Source: a virus
Virus record (IMG/VR): IMGVR_UViG_3300021389_002345
Span: 1-24,731 of that record
Reading direction: 5' to 3' (one strand)
Length of the DNA: 24,731 nucleotides
Shown: positions 2,172 through 23,105 of the stretch, piece after piece
How the letters are laid out: the number at the start of each line of letters is the position of its first letter
Position numbering within the stretch: position 1 is the stretch's first letter
Notes under the pieces: generated by a model
Told to the model about the DNA's origin: nothing
Seen by the model: the letters and a program-made list of their open reading frames with translations, nothing else
Database searches by the model: none
Made by a program: the position numbers and the translations under genes

Positions 2172-2888
2172 CTATTCTTCTTCTAAAGAAGTAAAAGCTT
2201 TACCTAAATCTACTATGAGTGCCCTTTCTGATTCAGAAAGTTTGCCAGTGACAGAGTTTGTCCATATTTCAGAATACAAACTAGTGCTATCACGGTAAAT
2301 AGACTTAGCTAATTTAATCTTTTTGGCGTTGTAAAGGTGTCTAAGTAAATTGACTTTACCTTTATAAGCATTTGTCAAAAAGAATAGCTTAAAAAAGAAC
2401 GATGACAACACTACTGGAGTGCTTGAATCGTTAATATCTTTTCTAGTCCATTGCTTATGTGATTTAAAATGACCTTTAACAAAAGATACTGCAGAGCGAA
2501 AGCTTTGCTTAATCCAATGATAAAAGAATCCAGTAACATACGAAGTCCAAGTTTTTTGGTCCCAGCCAATATGACCGTGCCAAAAACCGGGTTCGCTCCC
2601 ATTGTGAGCGTGTCCATCGTGTGTTAATAGGACTGCATCGTTGTTCAACCAACGAGCAAATTGATGACTATGTTTGTGACACAACCTAAAGTATGCTGGT
2701 TTTTGGTCGAATAAATCGATAAAATCACCATAACCACCTTGAGTGATTAGGTCCAACGCACCTTCGTTGTTTGTATCGTGGGATTTCCACTTACATTTAC
2801 GAACAGCACAGCCATCTACGTGGTATTCGTATCTTGGTCTTTCAACCAAGTCTTCAGCGTTTACATCACTGTTATTATTAGTTAACAT
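2172..2888 (-). CDS. Hypothetical protein with C-x4-C ... C-x2-H zinc pattern
   Basis: 238 aa, not recognised. The N-terminal part has Cys27-x4-Cys32 and Cys70-x2-His73, followed by a His-rich stretch (HDGHAHNGS, 90-98; WHGHIGW, 103-109). This is compatible with metal binding. The C-terminal half is basic and aromatic and ends in an acidic EEE. The same C-x4-C ... C-x2-H arrangement occurs in the small protein at 3876-4145, four genes upstream in the same direction. The start ATG is preceded by AGAAAGGC, a usable Shine-Dalgarno. A structural or accessory role is possible but nothing specific is supported. Confidence 0.75.
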   Translation of the reverse strand: MLTNNNSDVNAEDLVERPRYEYHVDGCAVRKCKWKSHDTNNEGALDLITQGGYGDFIDLFDQKPAYFRLCHKHSHQFARWLNNDAVLLTHDGHAHNGSEPGFWHGHIGWDQKTWTSYVTGFFYHWIKQSFRSAVSFVKGHFKSHKQWTRKDINDSSTPVVLSSFFFKLFFLTNAYKGKVNLLRHLYNAKKIKLAKSIYRDSTSLYSEIWTNSVTGKLSESERALIVDLGKAFTSLEEE

Positions 2889-9751: not shown

Positions 9752-9779
9752 AGTATAACACAAGTATAATATTTGTCAA
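9752..9779 (-). promoter_or_regulatory. Leaderless-type promoter
   Basis: TTGACA (9774-9779), 16-bp spacer, TATACT (9752-9757) preceded by TGTGT, then ATTCTT and ATG 9745. Confidence 0.85.
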
Positions 9780-9804: not shown

Positions 9805-9886
9805 TGGTGGAGCTGTTGGGAATTGAACCCAAGTTCTCCAACAGGCAGGAGTTATTCCTACTTACTGGAGCTTACCTATCAGCCCC
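9805..9886 (-). ncRNA. tRNA-like RNA with tmRNA/tRNA-Ala acceptor arm, no D-stem
   Basis: 82 nt ending in an encoded CCA. The acceptor stem GGGGCTG/CAGCTCC has a G3-U70 pair and discriminator A, the identity set of alanyl-tRNA synthetase and the same 5' and 3' ends as bacterial tmRNA (GGGGCUGAU ... CAGCUCCACCA). The T-arm is canonical: TTGGG-TTCAATT-CCCAA. There is no D-stem; the nine bases after the acceptor (ATAGGTAAG) keep a GG that could meet the T-loop. Instead of a normal anticodon arm there is a 14-bp helix with one A-C mismatch (9857-9870 with 9836-9849) capped by AATAACT, and G-U pairs arise in the minus-strand RNA. This matches the tRNA-like domain plus helix 2 of tmRNA, without tag ORF or pseudoknots. 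It lies downstream of a leaderless micro-ORF on the same transcript. A degenerate tRNA (UAA in the loop) is the main alternative. Confidence 0.72.
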
Positions 9887-9902: not shown

Positions 9903-9968
9903 TTATTTTTTGGAAGAGAAAGCCTCAGCTCTTCTCTCCATTTTTTCTATTTGTTTTGTTGTTCTCAT
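9903..9968 (-). CDS. Leaderless 21-aa micro-ORF ahead of the tRNA-like RNA
   Basis: MRTTKQIEKMERRAEAFSSK plus one more Lys; basic and helical. The ATG is exactly 6 nt after TAGAAT of a good promoter, like other genes here. The stop is 17 nt before the 5' end of the tRNA-like RNA, so both are on one transcript. It could be a real peptide or only the 5' part of the RNA precursor. Confidence 0.5.
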   Translation of the reverse strand: MRTTKQIEKMERRAEAFSSKK

Positions 9969-9974
9969 AAAAGA

Positions 9975-10002
9975 ATTCTAACACAGGAATAAACCTTGTC
10001 AA
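9975..10002 (-). promoter_or_regulatory. Promoter of micro-ORF and tRNA-like RNA
   Basis: TTGACA (9997-10002), 16-bp spacer, TAGAAT (9975-9980) preceded by TGTGT, then TCTTTT and ATG 9968. Confidence 0.82.
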
Positions 10003-19341: not shown

Positions 19342-19764
19342 TTATTCTTCTTCGAATACGTTCATATAGTTGTCGAATGAAGTCTCTGTATCGATAAAGT
19401 AATCAAACTCGGGTCTATGAAAAGTCTCCCAGTCTGCTTTCATTCTGTGACCTTTAGGTAGTATGTGAAAATCTTCTTCTGCACTTAAGTCAGAGGTCAT
19501 TGCCGGGTAACCGTTTCTCATTAGATACAAGAAATACTTTACTCTTCTGAAGCCTGCTTTAATTTTTTTGTTCTCATTGTCTTCACCAAACATTTCTTCT
19601 GCTTCATACCCACGTGAAAATACAATCCTCAGTGTGTAGAAGTCTGCTTTCTTGCCCGAGATAAACTCAAACCTTTTGTTGTGGCTTTCTACCTTGCGTT
19701 TAAGTATCTTAAGTATCTGCTGTTTAGTTAACGTCACTGTTGCCATACTTCTTTTTGTCTTCAT
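19342..19764 (-). CDS. Hypothetical basic protein at the end of the long operon
   Basis: 140 aa from ATG 19764 or 134 aa from ATG 19746 (MATVTLTKQQILKI); neither has a clear Shine-Dalgarno. It overlaps the ParB-like gene by about 20-40 nt in another frame. The N-terminus looks like a Lys-rich helix and the rest mixed alpha/beta, ending FEEE. Not recognised. Confidence 0.7.
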   Translation of the reverse strand: MKTKRSMATVTLTKQQILKILKRKVESHNKRFEFISGKKADFYTLRIVFSRGYEAEEMFGEDNENKKIKAGFRRVKYFLYLMRNGYPAMTSDLSAEEDFHILPKGHRMKADWETFHRPEFDYFIDTETSFDNYMNVFEEE

Positions 19765-20269
19765 ATGGATACCAAGCTTTAGAGTATTGCCATTTATCTA
19801 TCTCTTTTATGACGAATACAGTGTCAGCAAGTAACAATTCGACCTCTCTGCCGCCCATACCAAGCTCTTCTTGTAGGTTAGCTGGTGTCATTCCGAACTC
19901 ATTTACTAGTTTCTTTGCAATCTTTGCCATAGAACTAGCCTCGTGAACGCCCTTAGCTCTGTTTATTCTGATGGTAAGTAGCATTGCTTCCCTATCATCT
20001 AAGTCCATAACAACGCAAGGAACTCTGCCGCTGAACATTTTATAAAGTTCTTTACTGTCTTGAGCAAGTTTCCATCTATGAAAACCATCAATAATGATGT
20101 TGTTCTTGTTTATAAGTATTGGCTGTATCCATCCGAATCTTTGAATGTTCAAAGCTAATATTCTAAACTCATCTGTTAGAACTCTGTTTGGGTTGTAATC
20201 GTTAGGGTCTAACTCACTAGCTAGTTTCCAAACTACATTACTTATTGGCTGGTCTTCGAATATACTCAT
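19724..20269 (-). CDS. ParB-like (IbrB-type) protein, second copy
   Basis: 181 aa. The N-terminal ParB domain has DYNPNRV (24-30), IQRFGWIQPILI (42-53) and DGFHRWKLA (61-69), the arginine box of the family. A helix-turn-helix-like segment follows (FGMTPANLQEELGMGG, 125-140). ParB domains of this kind bind CTP in partition proteins, and IbrB-type relatives pair with a PAPS-reductase-like protein, as here (21117-22244). The domain assignment is firm; the role is not. Confidence 0.75.
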   Translation of the reverse strand: MSIFEDQPISNVVWKLASELDPNDYNPNRVLTDEFRILALNIQRFGWIQPILINKNNIIIDGFHRWKLAQDSKELYKMFSGRVPCVVMDLDDREAMLLTIRINRAKGVHEASSMAKIAKKLVNEFGMTPANLQEELGMGGREVELLLADTVFVIKEIDKWQYSKAWYPYEDKKKYGNSDVN

Positions 20270-20897: not shown

Positions 20898-21120
20898 AAT
20901 TAGAACTTATTCCTTTAAACGTTTTAGCACAAGTCTTTAAAATCCTTAGATTGTTTCTAAGAGCTTTAATTTCATCTGTATTGTGCTTACGTGATTCCAT
21001 CTTATATATTTTAGTTTCGAGCTTACCAATCCATCCATTTAGGTAGTCAAGGTATTCTTGCTTGACCATAGTAAGTCTGTATGCCTGTTTAGATTTTGAT
21101 TTGAAAAACAAATCCATCAT
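20887..21120 (-). CDS. Hypothetical basic helical protein
   Basis: 77 aa from ATG 21120, directly overlapping the PP-loop gene's stop (ATGA), with AGGAG upstream. Lys-rich, two predicted helices (YLDYLNGWIGKLETKIYKME, then TDEIKALRNNLRILK). Coiled-coil-like. It may be a partner of the PP-loop protein (inference from coupling). Confidence 0.68.
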   Translation of the reverse strand: MMDLFFKSKSKQAYRLTMVKQEYLDYLNGWIGKLETKIYKMESRKHNTDEIKALRNNLRILKTCAKTFKGISSNYEQ

Positions 21121-22244
21121 TTCTTTCTCCTATTCTTATTAATTTTCGGTTTCTTTCTACCGTATTTTTGTCGTATTTCCTGTGTAGTCATTGGATAAAT
21201 ATCACCGTGTATGATTTTGCCAGTAACAAAGTGCTTTAACACCCACTCTGCTGTGCCTCCCGGTAAATATCTATCCGGTTGTGTTTCAGTTAAACGCTTT
21301 ACAGCTTTCCACTTCTGCAGCATTCTTGGATAAACAGAGTCTTCCGGGTCAACATTGGCTTCAATCCATTGCTTGACACCTTCCATATCTTTACCATATT
21401 CTTTATAAATGTGTGCGTCGCTTATCGTGCCCTTGTATCTTTCGTGTGCTCTTACCTCGGGGAATATATCAGTTAACCTGTTATAAAACTCCGGGTCCAT
21501 CTGTGCCCACTTGTCTATAGTCTTCATAGATTCTGCGATTAATGGTGGTGCAACCCTAAGTCCGTCGCCACTCCATAATTGTTGCTCATACCAAGCTGAG
21601 TATCTTAAGTTATTATCGTGAAAGTATTTAAATACATCATTTTCCATCCAGTCATATATTGGCTTAGCTAATCTAGTTCTATCTAAACTAGAGCTTACAA
21701 TATAGTTGTCAGTAATCTTATTTACTACTGAACGGTAACGAACTAAACTTTCTTCAGCTCTGATACCATTTATTATTGCTACTTTACCTTTAGGATAAGT
21801 ATCAGTAATGATTTGGTCATAGCCGTGTCGACCTAAGACTTCTGTTCTATCATTTAAAGTCTCAGCCCATTCGGGTTTAGGTCTTAGCCATTCTCTTTCT
21901 CCACTTGGGTCCCAGTAAGTTATTTGCTTAGTTACGCCTAAACAGAAGAAAGAACCATTCTTTGGTAGTGCATACCACGTCATATTGCACCAAGGTTGGT
22001 CAAAGTAATACTTTACATTATCAAGTATCAGTCCCGGATTCAATTCTTCATCTCTATGATGAGCATCGATTGAGTCTAGTCCTCTTTCTTGAGCGACTTC
22101 CCAAACGAGGTTAAGGATGACGGTAGAATCTTTGCCACCGCTGTAAGCAATGTTAACATTGTCGTGAGTGTCATAAATATGATGAATACGTTTCTTAGCT
22201 TCTTCATAAACATTCTCCTCAATGAAACCTTTTTGTCTAGCCAT
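21117..22244 (-). CDS. PAPS-reductase-like PP-loop protein (IbrA-like)
   Basis: 375 aa. The ATP-pyrophosphatase loop SGGKDS is at 35-40 after beta-strand NIAY, with GIRAEES (160-166) and PIYDWMENDVFKYF (195-208), the pattern of the PAPS reductase/DndC/IbrA group. These enzymes adenylate a substrate before sulfur transfer or another reaction; IbrA-type members work beside a ParB-like IbrB. Here two ParB-like genes lie on either side (22461-23105 and 19724-20269). Full length, intact motifs. The actual substrate is unknown; nucleic-acid modification is one option. Confidence 0.82.
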   Translation of the reverse strand: MARQKGFIEENVYEEAKKRIHHIYDTHDNVNIAYSGGKDSTVILNLVWEVAQERGLDSIDAHHRDEELNPGLILDNVKYYFDQPWCNMTWYALPKNGSFFCLGVTKQITYWDPSGEREWLRPKPEWAETLNDRTEVLGRHGYDQIITDTYPKGKVAIINGIRAEESLVRYRSVVNKITDNYIVSSSLDRTRLAKPIYDWMENDVFKYFHDNNLRYSAWYEQQLWSGDGLRVAPPLIAESMKTIDKWAQMDPEFYNRLTDIFPEVRAHERYKGTISDAHIYKEYGKDMEGVKQWIEANVDPEDSVYPRMLQKWKAVKRLTETQPDRYLPGGTAEWVLKHFVTGKIIHGDIYPMTTQEIRQKYGRKKPKINKNRRKK

Positions 22245-22461
22245 TTTCCGTTTTTAACTTAGCTTTACGTAACTTGTCTATACCTGTATCAAACTGTAAC
22301 ATTGCTGCTTGCCATTGGGTATATTGCTGTGGTTCACCTTGTAATCTACTAGGCTCAGACATCTCAAGACTAAATCTCTGCACTTCCATCTCTAGAAGTT
22401 GTCTGTCTAAGATTTCTAATTTTTTTTCTTTATCTAATAATTGATATTCAAAATCACTCAT
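22237..22461 (-). CDS. Hypothetical helical protein between ParB-like and PP-loop genes
   Basis: 74 aa from ATG 22461, in a TAATG overlap with the ParB-like stop; GGGGGAAT is upstream. Helical and charged (FEYQLLDKEKKLEILDRQLL), probably a coiled coil. It overlaps the PP-loop gene by 8 nt. Its position inside the module suggests a linked role. Confidence 0.7.
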   Translation of the reverse strand: MSDFEYQLLDKEKKLEILDRQLLEMEVQRFSLEMSEPSRLQGEPQQYTQWQAAMLQFDTGIDKLRKAKLKTENG

Positions 22462-23105
22462 TATTCCCCCATACACATTTCTATGTGCTGAAAAAATCTT
22501 TCTCCGATTGTTTCACCATCATAATTATCTTGAAGCCATCTAACGAAAGAATAAAACTGTGCTTGTTGAGTTTCATCGTCAAACACTATCTCATAAGATG
22601 GTTTACCCATTGGCAACCCTTTATCTTCACCTTCGTCTATTGACGCTTCCATATCGTCATACATTTGCTGAATGTCAGCTTGGTCGAAACCAGTTCCACT
22701 CAAGTCAGTTGCCTCTGCTAATTTTTCAAGTTCTTCTAAAAGAACATTTGTATTCCAACCACCAAGCTCTACTAATCTGTTATCTGCTAACAAGTATGCT
22801 TGAGCTTCGTTCTCATCTTTGAATGAGACACCACGGATAATTGGTATCAACCAGTCTCCGTCTTCATCAACATTTATATTTGCTGGGGGGTCTTCGTTAA
22901 ATTGTTTTTTCTGAGTTAAGGCTTCCACTCTACCGTGACCTGCAACAAGTTTCCCTGTAGCTTCATTCATAAGTAGTGGTGAGGTAAAACCAAACCTGTT
23001 CATAGATTCGTGTATTGCACCTATGTCGTGGTCTTTTGGATTTACGTCTGCCTCAGCAATCTCAGAAAGTTTTGTAAATTGAATGCCTACTTTGTCTTCG
23101 CTCAT
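22461..23105 (-). CDS. ParB-like (IbrB-type) protein, first copy
   Basis: 214 aa. The ParB N-domain has NPKDHDIGAIHESMNRFGF (22-40), LLMNEATGKLVAGHGRVEAL (44-63) with the GHGR box, then AYLLADNRLVELGGW. The C-terminal part is acidic and ends with a helical segment (AQFYSFVRWLQDNY, GERFFQHIE). This layout is common in phage ParB-like proteins that sit beside PP-loop genes. Overlaps the upstream gene by 4 nt. Confidence 0.8.
   Translation of the reverse strand: MSEDKVGIQFTKLSEIAEADVNPKDHDIGAIHESMNRFGFTSPLLMNEATGKLVAGHGRVEALTQKKQFNEDPPANINVDEDGDWLIPIIRGVSFKDENEAQAYLLADNRLVELGGWNTNVLLEELEKLAEATDLSGTGFDQADIQQMYDDMEASIDEGEDKGLPMGKPSYEIVFDDETQQAQFYSFVRWLQDNYDGETIGERFFQHIEMCMGE

Follow-up and report, generated by a model that had tools for sequence, protein, structure and literature searches.

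The window, by which we mean the whole 24,731-nt stretch of viral DNA that was analysed (IMG/VR record IMGVR_UViG_3300021389_002345), carries in an intergenic gap a gene for an RNA that appears to be a tmRNA cut down to its TLD, the tRNA-like half, with a closed hairpin arm in the place that the mRNA-like domain and the pseudoknots would occupy. The earlier note had described the RNA as this half without the mRNA-like half, a reading that is now strongly supported by the anatomy, by covariation and by the lack of a cloverleaf. It had also treated the RNA as a one-off, which did not hold, as the window RNA is one divergent member of a phage family. We consider it about 60% probable that this phage RNA is an alanylatable decoy that binds SmpB and EF-Tu and blocks trans-translation. 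Direct support exists for the anatomy, the covariation, the invariant alanine identity pair, most of the SmpB-contact positions across the family and the absence of smpB from the carriers scanned.

The 82-nt RNA was read directly from the window sequence on the minus strand, from 9886 to 9805. In 5′ to 3′ order, its first half consists of GGGGCUG, AUAGGUAAG, CUCCAGUAAGUAGGA and AUAAC, and its second half of UCCUGCCUGUUGGAG, AAC, UUGGG, UUCAAUU, CCCAA, CAGCUCC, A and CCA (Table 1). The 7-bp acceptor GGGGCTG/CAGCTCC, the G3-U70 pair, A73 and the encoded CCA that had been claimed before were all recovered on this strand, and the canonical T-arm, of 5 bp with a 7-nt loop, was present in both the sequence and the fold. 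The predicted fold had an energy of −32.5 kcal/mol (z = −3.2 against dinucleotide shuffles). In this fold the nine bases of the D-region are unpaired, in agreement with the claimed lack of a D-stem, and the acceptor strands enclose just one closed hairpin arm. This single hairpin and an ARAGORN tmRNA count of 0 also bear out the statement that a tag reading frame and a pseudoknot are missing. The middle helix had been given as 14 bp under a 7-nt loop; the 14 pairs stand, as 8 + 6 pairs with a single A-C mismatch between them, and the loop on top has 5 nt instead. The full layout of the RNA had no occurrence in 436 kb of shuffled sequence. A permuted two-piece tmRNA was considered and rejected, since the two TLD halves lie in normal order around the hairpin only.

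ARAGORN reported no tRNA and no tmRNA in the window, and Rfam gave no match there at gathering thresholds. The covariance search that the earlier note had proposed found no cloverleaf, and the top sub-threshold Rfam model of the window RNA was tmRNA (RF00023; 35.7 bits, gathering score 47), which displaced the lower matches of the same clan. The orthologous RNA of a relative, L015, scored 46.7 bits with the tmRNA model (gathering score 47), in a match that spans both ends of the model (1-374) and skips its interior. By sequence and predicted fold, the window RNA has the stemless D-region with GG and the T-arm that make up the elbow of tmRNA. It departs from tRNA (RF00005) in having A8 instead of U8, no D-stem and 0 genes in ARAGORN. 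TLD-only phage RNA genes of this kind escape standard annotation or occasionally carry a wrong label, tmRNA or tRNA-Val.

The promoter-like TTGACA-16-TAGAAT that lies 5′ of the RNA matches 11 of the 12 consensus positions and is TG-extended; the good promoter claimed upstream was thus found again, at 10002-9975, as a consensus match only. Between this site and the RNA, at 9911-9940, a strong hairpin (GGAGAGAAGAGC-TGAG-GCTTTCTCTTCC) is located inside a possible 21-codon ORF, the start of which is potentially almost at the transcription start. Farther along the window, two ParB-like proteins are encoded at 19724-20269 and 22461-23105, with a PAPS-reductase-like protein between both genes (21117-22244).

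The nearest phage, L002, is almost identical to the window and carries an identical RNA, so that this near lineage gives no variation and therefore no test. L015 was found among the relatives via the large terminase. At the same place, before the 90-aa gene and the small terminase, it has the RNA GGGGCUGAUUGGUUUAGAUACUAAGGGACACUUAAGUGAUUCCGUAGUAUAACUGGGGUUCGACUCCCCACAGCUCCA, in which the acceptor and the T-arm are kept and the long helix, nearly all different in sequence, still folds (z −3.0). Compensatory change in the helix, which had been named earlier as a check, was seen in this orthologue and in at least 165 other phage RNAs. Ten other terminase relatives had no match to the R1 covariance model described below, which indicates that the gene comes and goes and is not essential to the lineage. 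Just upstream of the L015 RNA (~137-299), ~160 bases resemble a further non-coding RNA, with an ordinary folding energy (z 0.15). Two terminase relatives, L030 (~2758-2868, plus strand) and L031, have a larger tRNA-like RNA, GGAATAAG...GGGGGTTCAAATCCCCCTTATTCC-A-CGA (fold z −3.6), with another acceptor that lacks G3-U70; after it, several hundred nucleotides of non-coding sequence seem to be structured. L030 had no Rfam match at threshold. Comparison of the locus with isolated phages by blastn gave matches at chance level only.

Table 1. Features of the TLD-only RNA and its locus in the window.
Feature	Position	Strand	Evidence or remark
TLD-only tmRNA-like RNA, encoded CCA, 82 nt	9805..9886	-	sequence, fold, R1 match 41.6 bits, tmRNA 35.7 bits
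Acceptor 5′ strand GGGGCUG, G3 = 9884	9880..9886	-	sequence; pairs with 9809-9815
D-region AUAGGUAAG, without stem, GG = 9876-9875	9871..9879	-	sequence; GG common to 163/167 RNAs listed
Long helix, 5′ arm, in place of mRNA-like domain	9856..9870	-	sequence, fold
Terminal loop AUAAC	9851..9855	-	fold
Long helix, 3′ arm	9836..9850	-	sequence, fold; L015 pairs with other sequence
AAC linker, second A = presumed A334-equivalent	9833..9835	-	A there in 164/167 RNAs listed
T-arm UUGGG-UUCAAUU-CCCAA, 5 bp + 7-nt loop	9816..9832	-	sequence, fold
Acceptor 3′ strand CAGCUCC, U70 = 9811	9809..9815	-	sequence; 89-sequence alignment
A73 and encoded CCA	9805..9808	-	sequence; CCA encoded in 59/167 RNAs listed
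Promoter-like TTGACA-16-TAGAAT, upstream of RNA	9975..10002	-	consensus match only
Second promoter-like site, for next gene, downstream of RNA	9752..9779	-	consensus match
Next gene, 164 aa, without family match; absent from this place in L015	9227..9721	-	
90-aa gene after RNA locus in window and L015, 60% identity	8889..9161	-	
Terminase small subunit, marker of shared locus, 95% identical in L015	7888..8289	-	

For the first test of the structure, 28 sequences were aligned with MAFFT, the RNAs of the window and of L015 being left out. In this alignment 94.9% of cells were paired, and the covariation score was 0.544, whereas shuffles gave 0.127 and slid partners no more than 0.128. Among 89 distinct aligned matches, 97.0% of cells were paired, with 561 double changes and a covariation score of 0.601 against 0.115 after shuffling; because this larger alignment was fitted to the structure, the count from the 28 sequences is the cleaner one. 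A mixed-length MAFFT alignment (A2), in which the acceptor was misaligned, was left out of the pair counts. All 89 aligned RNAs had G3-U70, including two with U4-A69 for G4-C69, and acceptor pairs 4, 5 and 6 covaried among the relatives in this alignment. As all four helices covary in ~90 sequences, the RNA structure is under selection. These compensatory changes contradict the view that the locus is a relic or an attachment site, namely a host tmRNA remnant that stayed behind after integration or recombination and has no function as RNA. The 3′ ends of tmRNA genes are often attachment sites (PMC11915505), but here a matched 5′ half is present as well, and the 20 window proteins tested included no clearly recognisable integrase; we regard this poorly fitting explanation as extremely improbable. 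Reading the gene as a pseudogene was rejected on the same compensatory changes.

The covariance model R1 was built from the 28-sequence alignment, without the window RNA and without that of L015. It matched the window RNA end to end (1-79 of 79; 41.6 bits, E 8.4e-7 in 422 kb) and the L015 RNA over positions 1 to 79 (53.7 bits). At E ≤ 1, the window RNA, its twin in L002 (41.6 bits) and the L015 RNA were the only matches in the 422 kb. In a background of 13 bacterial genomes (~67 Mb) that had been chosen as pattern matches, ordinary tmRNA and tRNA reached at most 38.3 bits, so the window RNA with its 41.6 bits lies little above this background, whereas L015 and most members lie far above it.

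In IMG/VR, the sole match to a strict pattern (CCA, GGGTTC..CCC) was the near-identical phage, and a relaxed pattern uncovered the family, in at least 119 contigs. A second scan was anchored on UUCGAC and GGAC, with the 5′ acceptor strand (position 3 included) and position 70 left free, and gave at least 120 contigs. After filtering, the two scans together comprised at least 167 unique RNAs of 61-92 nt, those of the window and L015 included, and 94 representatives under ~78% identity were obtained from the 167 unique RNAs listed. Position 5-68 was paired (A-U, C-G, G-C, U-A or U-G) in 116 of 116 true members among the matches listed for the first scan. Among the unique matches listed for the second, 85 of 87 had a perfect 7-bp acceptor, and each of these 85 had G3-U70. 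The acceptor type GGGGATG/CATCTCC was found in 24 contigs by the full scan compared with 13 among the matches listed. Scaled up, this suggests that the strict pattern would occur in roughly 220 of the 2.9 million contigs of IMG/VR. The TLD-only RNA gene is thus widespread, not common, in IMG/VR. The D-region type of the window, GGUNAGC, occurred in 12 further contigs beyond L002, and CCA was encoded in 59 of the 167 RNAs listed. The viral matches L066, L092 and L149 were discarded as 3′ ends of ordinary tmRNA with an internal GGGGCTGAGAAA; matches in genome contigs were mostly 3′ ends of ordinary actinobacterial tmRNA, in which the internal GGGGCTGAGAAA imitates the 5′ end.

The hairpin arm of many members shows an A-rich internal loop under a short CC...GG hairpin, a form that is absent from tmRNA, and the tetraloops are CAYG, CAAG or GNRA-like. 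A loose motif of this arm was present in 36 of the 94 representatives, compared with 5.7 after shuffling. TLD-only RNAs were also observed in a cellular, non-phage setting, on the minus strand of two Poribacteria MAG contigs (L164, 1361-1443; L204, 4114-4196). They scored ~60 bits with R1 and 66-68 bits with Rfam tmRNA. Next to them are cas1 and a CRISPR-like array that repeats every ~73 bp, and a full-length tmRNA is also present in at least one of these MAGs. Short TLD-like candidates (36-41 bits) were noted in L266, L188 and L276 (Eisenbacteria, Chloroflexota and Terriglobia MAGs), with a full-length tmRNA in the same genomes.

One clear copy of the RNA was present in each of the 43 carrier records tested. 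None of 40 carrier records had an SmpB family match, in a search that was positive in 10 of 14 control genomes. Five isolated Streptomyces phages (LuckySocke, Alone3, GiJojo, pSt2308 and BRock) contain the TLD-only RNA, always within the tRNA array, after tRNA-Val and before the next tRNA genes, and in these genomes it is not annotated as RNA. Two of the five have U4-A69 instead of G4-C69 and retain G3-U70. A Ro-like RNA-binding protein and an RNA ligase are encoded near the array of LuckySocke (L379, 1-570). In L127 the RNA likewise lies directly between tRNA genes, and 20 of the 167 RNAs listed are at most 500 bp from a tRNA gene (19 of the 20 on the same strand), compared with 5.3% of random places in the same loci. 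This vicinity of phage tRNA genes and the patchy occurrence among related phages would also suit a decoy aimed at an effector of host defence, which might absorb a nuclease or modifying toxin of tRNA-Ala or tmRNA, or the SmpB-like domain of a defence protein, such as the SPB domain of CoCoNuTs, which are predicted to sense tmRNA-like partners (PMC11090510). We consider such a role distinctly unlikely, as no particular defence system is linked to the RNA, and the tmRNA-specific positions (the A334-equivalent and the majority UUCGAC) indicate SmpB itself. The genome context does not separate ribosomal from defence targets.

We take U17 and G19 of the E. coli numbering to fall in UUCGAC and A334 to be the A of GGAC; the second A of the AAC linker in the window RNA presumably equals A334. 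In E. coli tmRNA, a pocket formed by A15, U17 and A334 receives Trp122 of SmpB, and G19 is required for SmpB binding (PMC8363625). Among the RNAs listed, 164 of 167 had an A at the A334-equivalent and 163 of 167 the GG of the D-loop. UUCGAC was the commonest D-loop among the matches listed, and its combination with a GGAC hinge was the majority pattern. The window RNA retains GG, the A334-equivalent, G3-U70 and the T-arm; it has UAAGCU for UUCGAC and GAAC for the GGAC hinge, and the contacts made by U17 and G19 are not clearly preserved. The replacement of UUCGAC by UAAGCU makes the window RNA a divergent member and its affinity for SmpB the least certain step of the proposal. A variant of tRNA-Ala, or a tRNA-like RNA unrelated to tmRNA that acts, for example, as an alanine donor outside the ribosome, would share G3-U70, the T-arm and A73, all common to tRNA-Ala, and R1 gave the tRNA-Ala of LuckySocke 28.5 bits. 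Such an origin nevertheless fits poorly and is highly improbable: the D-stem and the anticodon arm are absent, position 8 is A in 108 and T in 9 of the 167 RNAs listed as against the U8 of tRNAs, UUCGAC and GGAC are tmRNA motifs, and Rfam favours tmRNA.

According to the decoy model, the adjacent upstream promoter would drive transcription of the RNA, the 5′ end would be processed as in a tRNA, and alanyl-tRNA synthetase would charge the molecule via G3-U70. Host SmpB and EF-Tu would bind its elbow and acceptor, and the RNA would compete with host tmRNA for SmpB, AlaRS, EF-Tu and stalled ribosomes. In a stalled A site it could take over the nascent chain and would offer no resume codon, so that tagging and rescue by trans-translation would be blocked. 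Expression, charging, SmpB binding, inhibition and a benefit to the phage are steps that we infer. Since the same stripped-down RNA occurs in more than 100 very different phage contigs, it is probably a tool for jamming host ribosome rescue. The invariance of G3-U70 suggests that charging matters and hence that the RNA acts on the ribosome or with EF-Tu besides titrating SmpB. This invariant pair, superfluous for a pure SmpB sponge, may also point to a productive rescue factor without a tag, which would take the nascent chain together with host SmpB and leave untagged release to peptidyl-tRNA hydrolase or ArfA/ArfB; phage proteins would then be spared ssrA-directed proteolysis. Truncated tmRNA with SmpB and EF-Tu binds the stalled ribosome (PMC8363625), and a passage in PMC4131195 reports inhibition for chargeable and unchargeable RNA alike. 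We hold productive rescue to be unlikely, because ribosome recycling after transpeptidation has no known step in the absence of a resume codon and the published TLD-type molecule is described as an inhibitor in passages of PMC4131195 and PMC11915505.

The tmRNA of mycobacteriophage DS6A has been listed as ‘TLD only’ (tmID 11587; Hudson, Lau and Williams 2014, PMC4131195). A passage in that paper, citing Mao et al. 2009, describes a comparable molecule as a strong tmRNA inhibitor that may act by titrating SmpB, and a passage in PMC11915505 repeats the inhibition of tmRNA by the TLD type and adds CDS-less plastid tmRNAs. The DS6A RNA is phage-encoded and TLD only, and the window RNA is likewise a phage gene of little more than the TLD. 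DS6A is a single phage, covered by one sentence and a table and likened to the present family by description, whereas the present family spans more than 100 contigs and has a conserved hairpin arm, with a member in the window that lacks UUCGAC. The engineered TLD-type inhibitor, as reported in these passages (Mao et al. 2009, in PMC4131195 and PMC11915505), is a TLD without the mRNA-like domain that inhibits E. coli tmRNA; unlike the phage genes, it is a laboratory construct. AlaRS and SmpB recognition of the window RNA and its role as a decoy would be in agreement with both the TLD-only phage RNA and its engineered counterpart. With bacterial tmRNA (RF00023), the window RNA has in common the G3-U70 acceptor, A73, the T-arm, the stemless D-region with GG and the A334-C335 hinge, but it lacks the mRNA-like domain, the resume codon and the pseudoknots and measures 82 nt versus ~360. 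The full-length or two-piece tmRNAs of Bxz1-like mycobacteriophages, Bacillus phage G and methylophage Melnitz are also phage-encoded tmRNA relatives (PMC4131195, PMC9004378), but they retain the tag reading frame and could in principle tag proteins. The CDS-less tmRNAs of some mitochondria and of Mallomonadaceae plastids (~65 bp; PMC11915505) are likewise barely more than a TLD. They differ in that they were reduced in organelles (an SmpB encoded in the nucleus has been noted for the mitochondrial form) and are not phage genes in competition with a full host tmRNA. In the open-licence literature we found no report of a wider phage TLD-only family; the kind was known from one phage, and its breadth, the conserved arm and the loss of UUCGAC in the window type appear to be new.

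Trans-translation is nearly universal in bacteria, and phage attack on it has barely been studied. We give even odds to the broader proposal that TLD-only tmRNAs with a hairpin arm of their own form a family scattered over many unrelated phages, in which they serve as inhibitors of trans-translation made of RNA alone. The recurrence of the RNA in more than 100 diverse contigs and in five culturable Streptomyces phages makes a block of ribosome rescue by an RNA mimic directly testable. If the proposal is true, phage counter-measures would be aimed at ribosome rescue time and again, with an RNA mimic in place of a protein.
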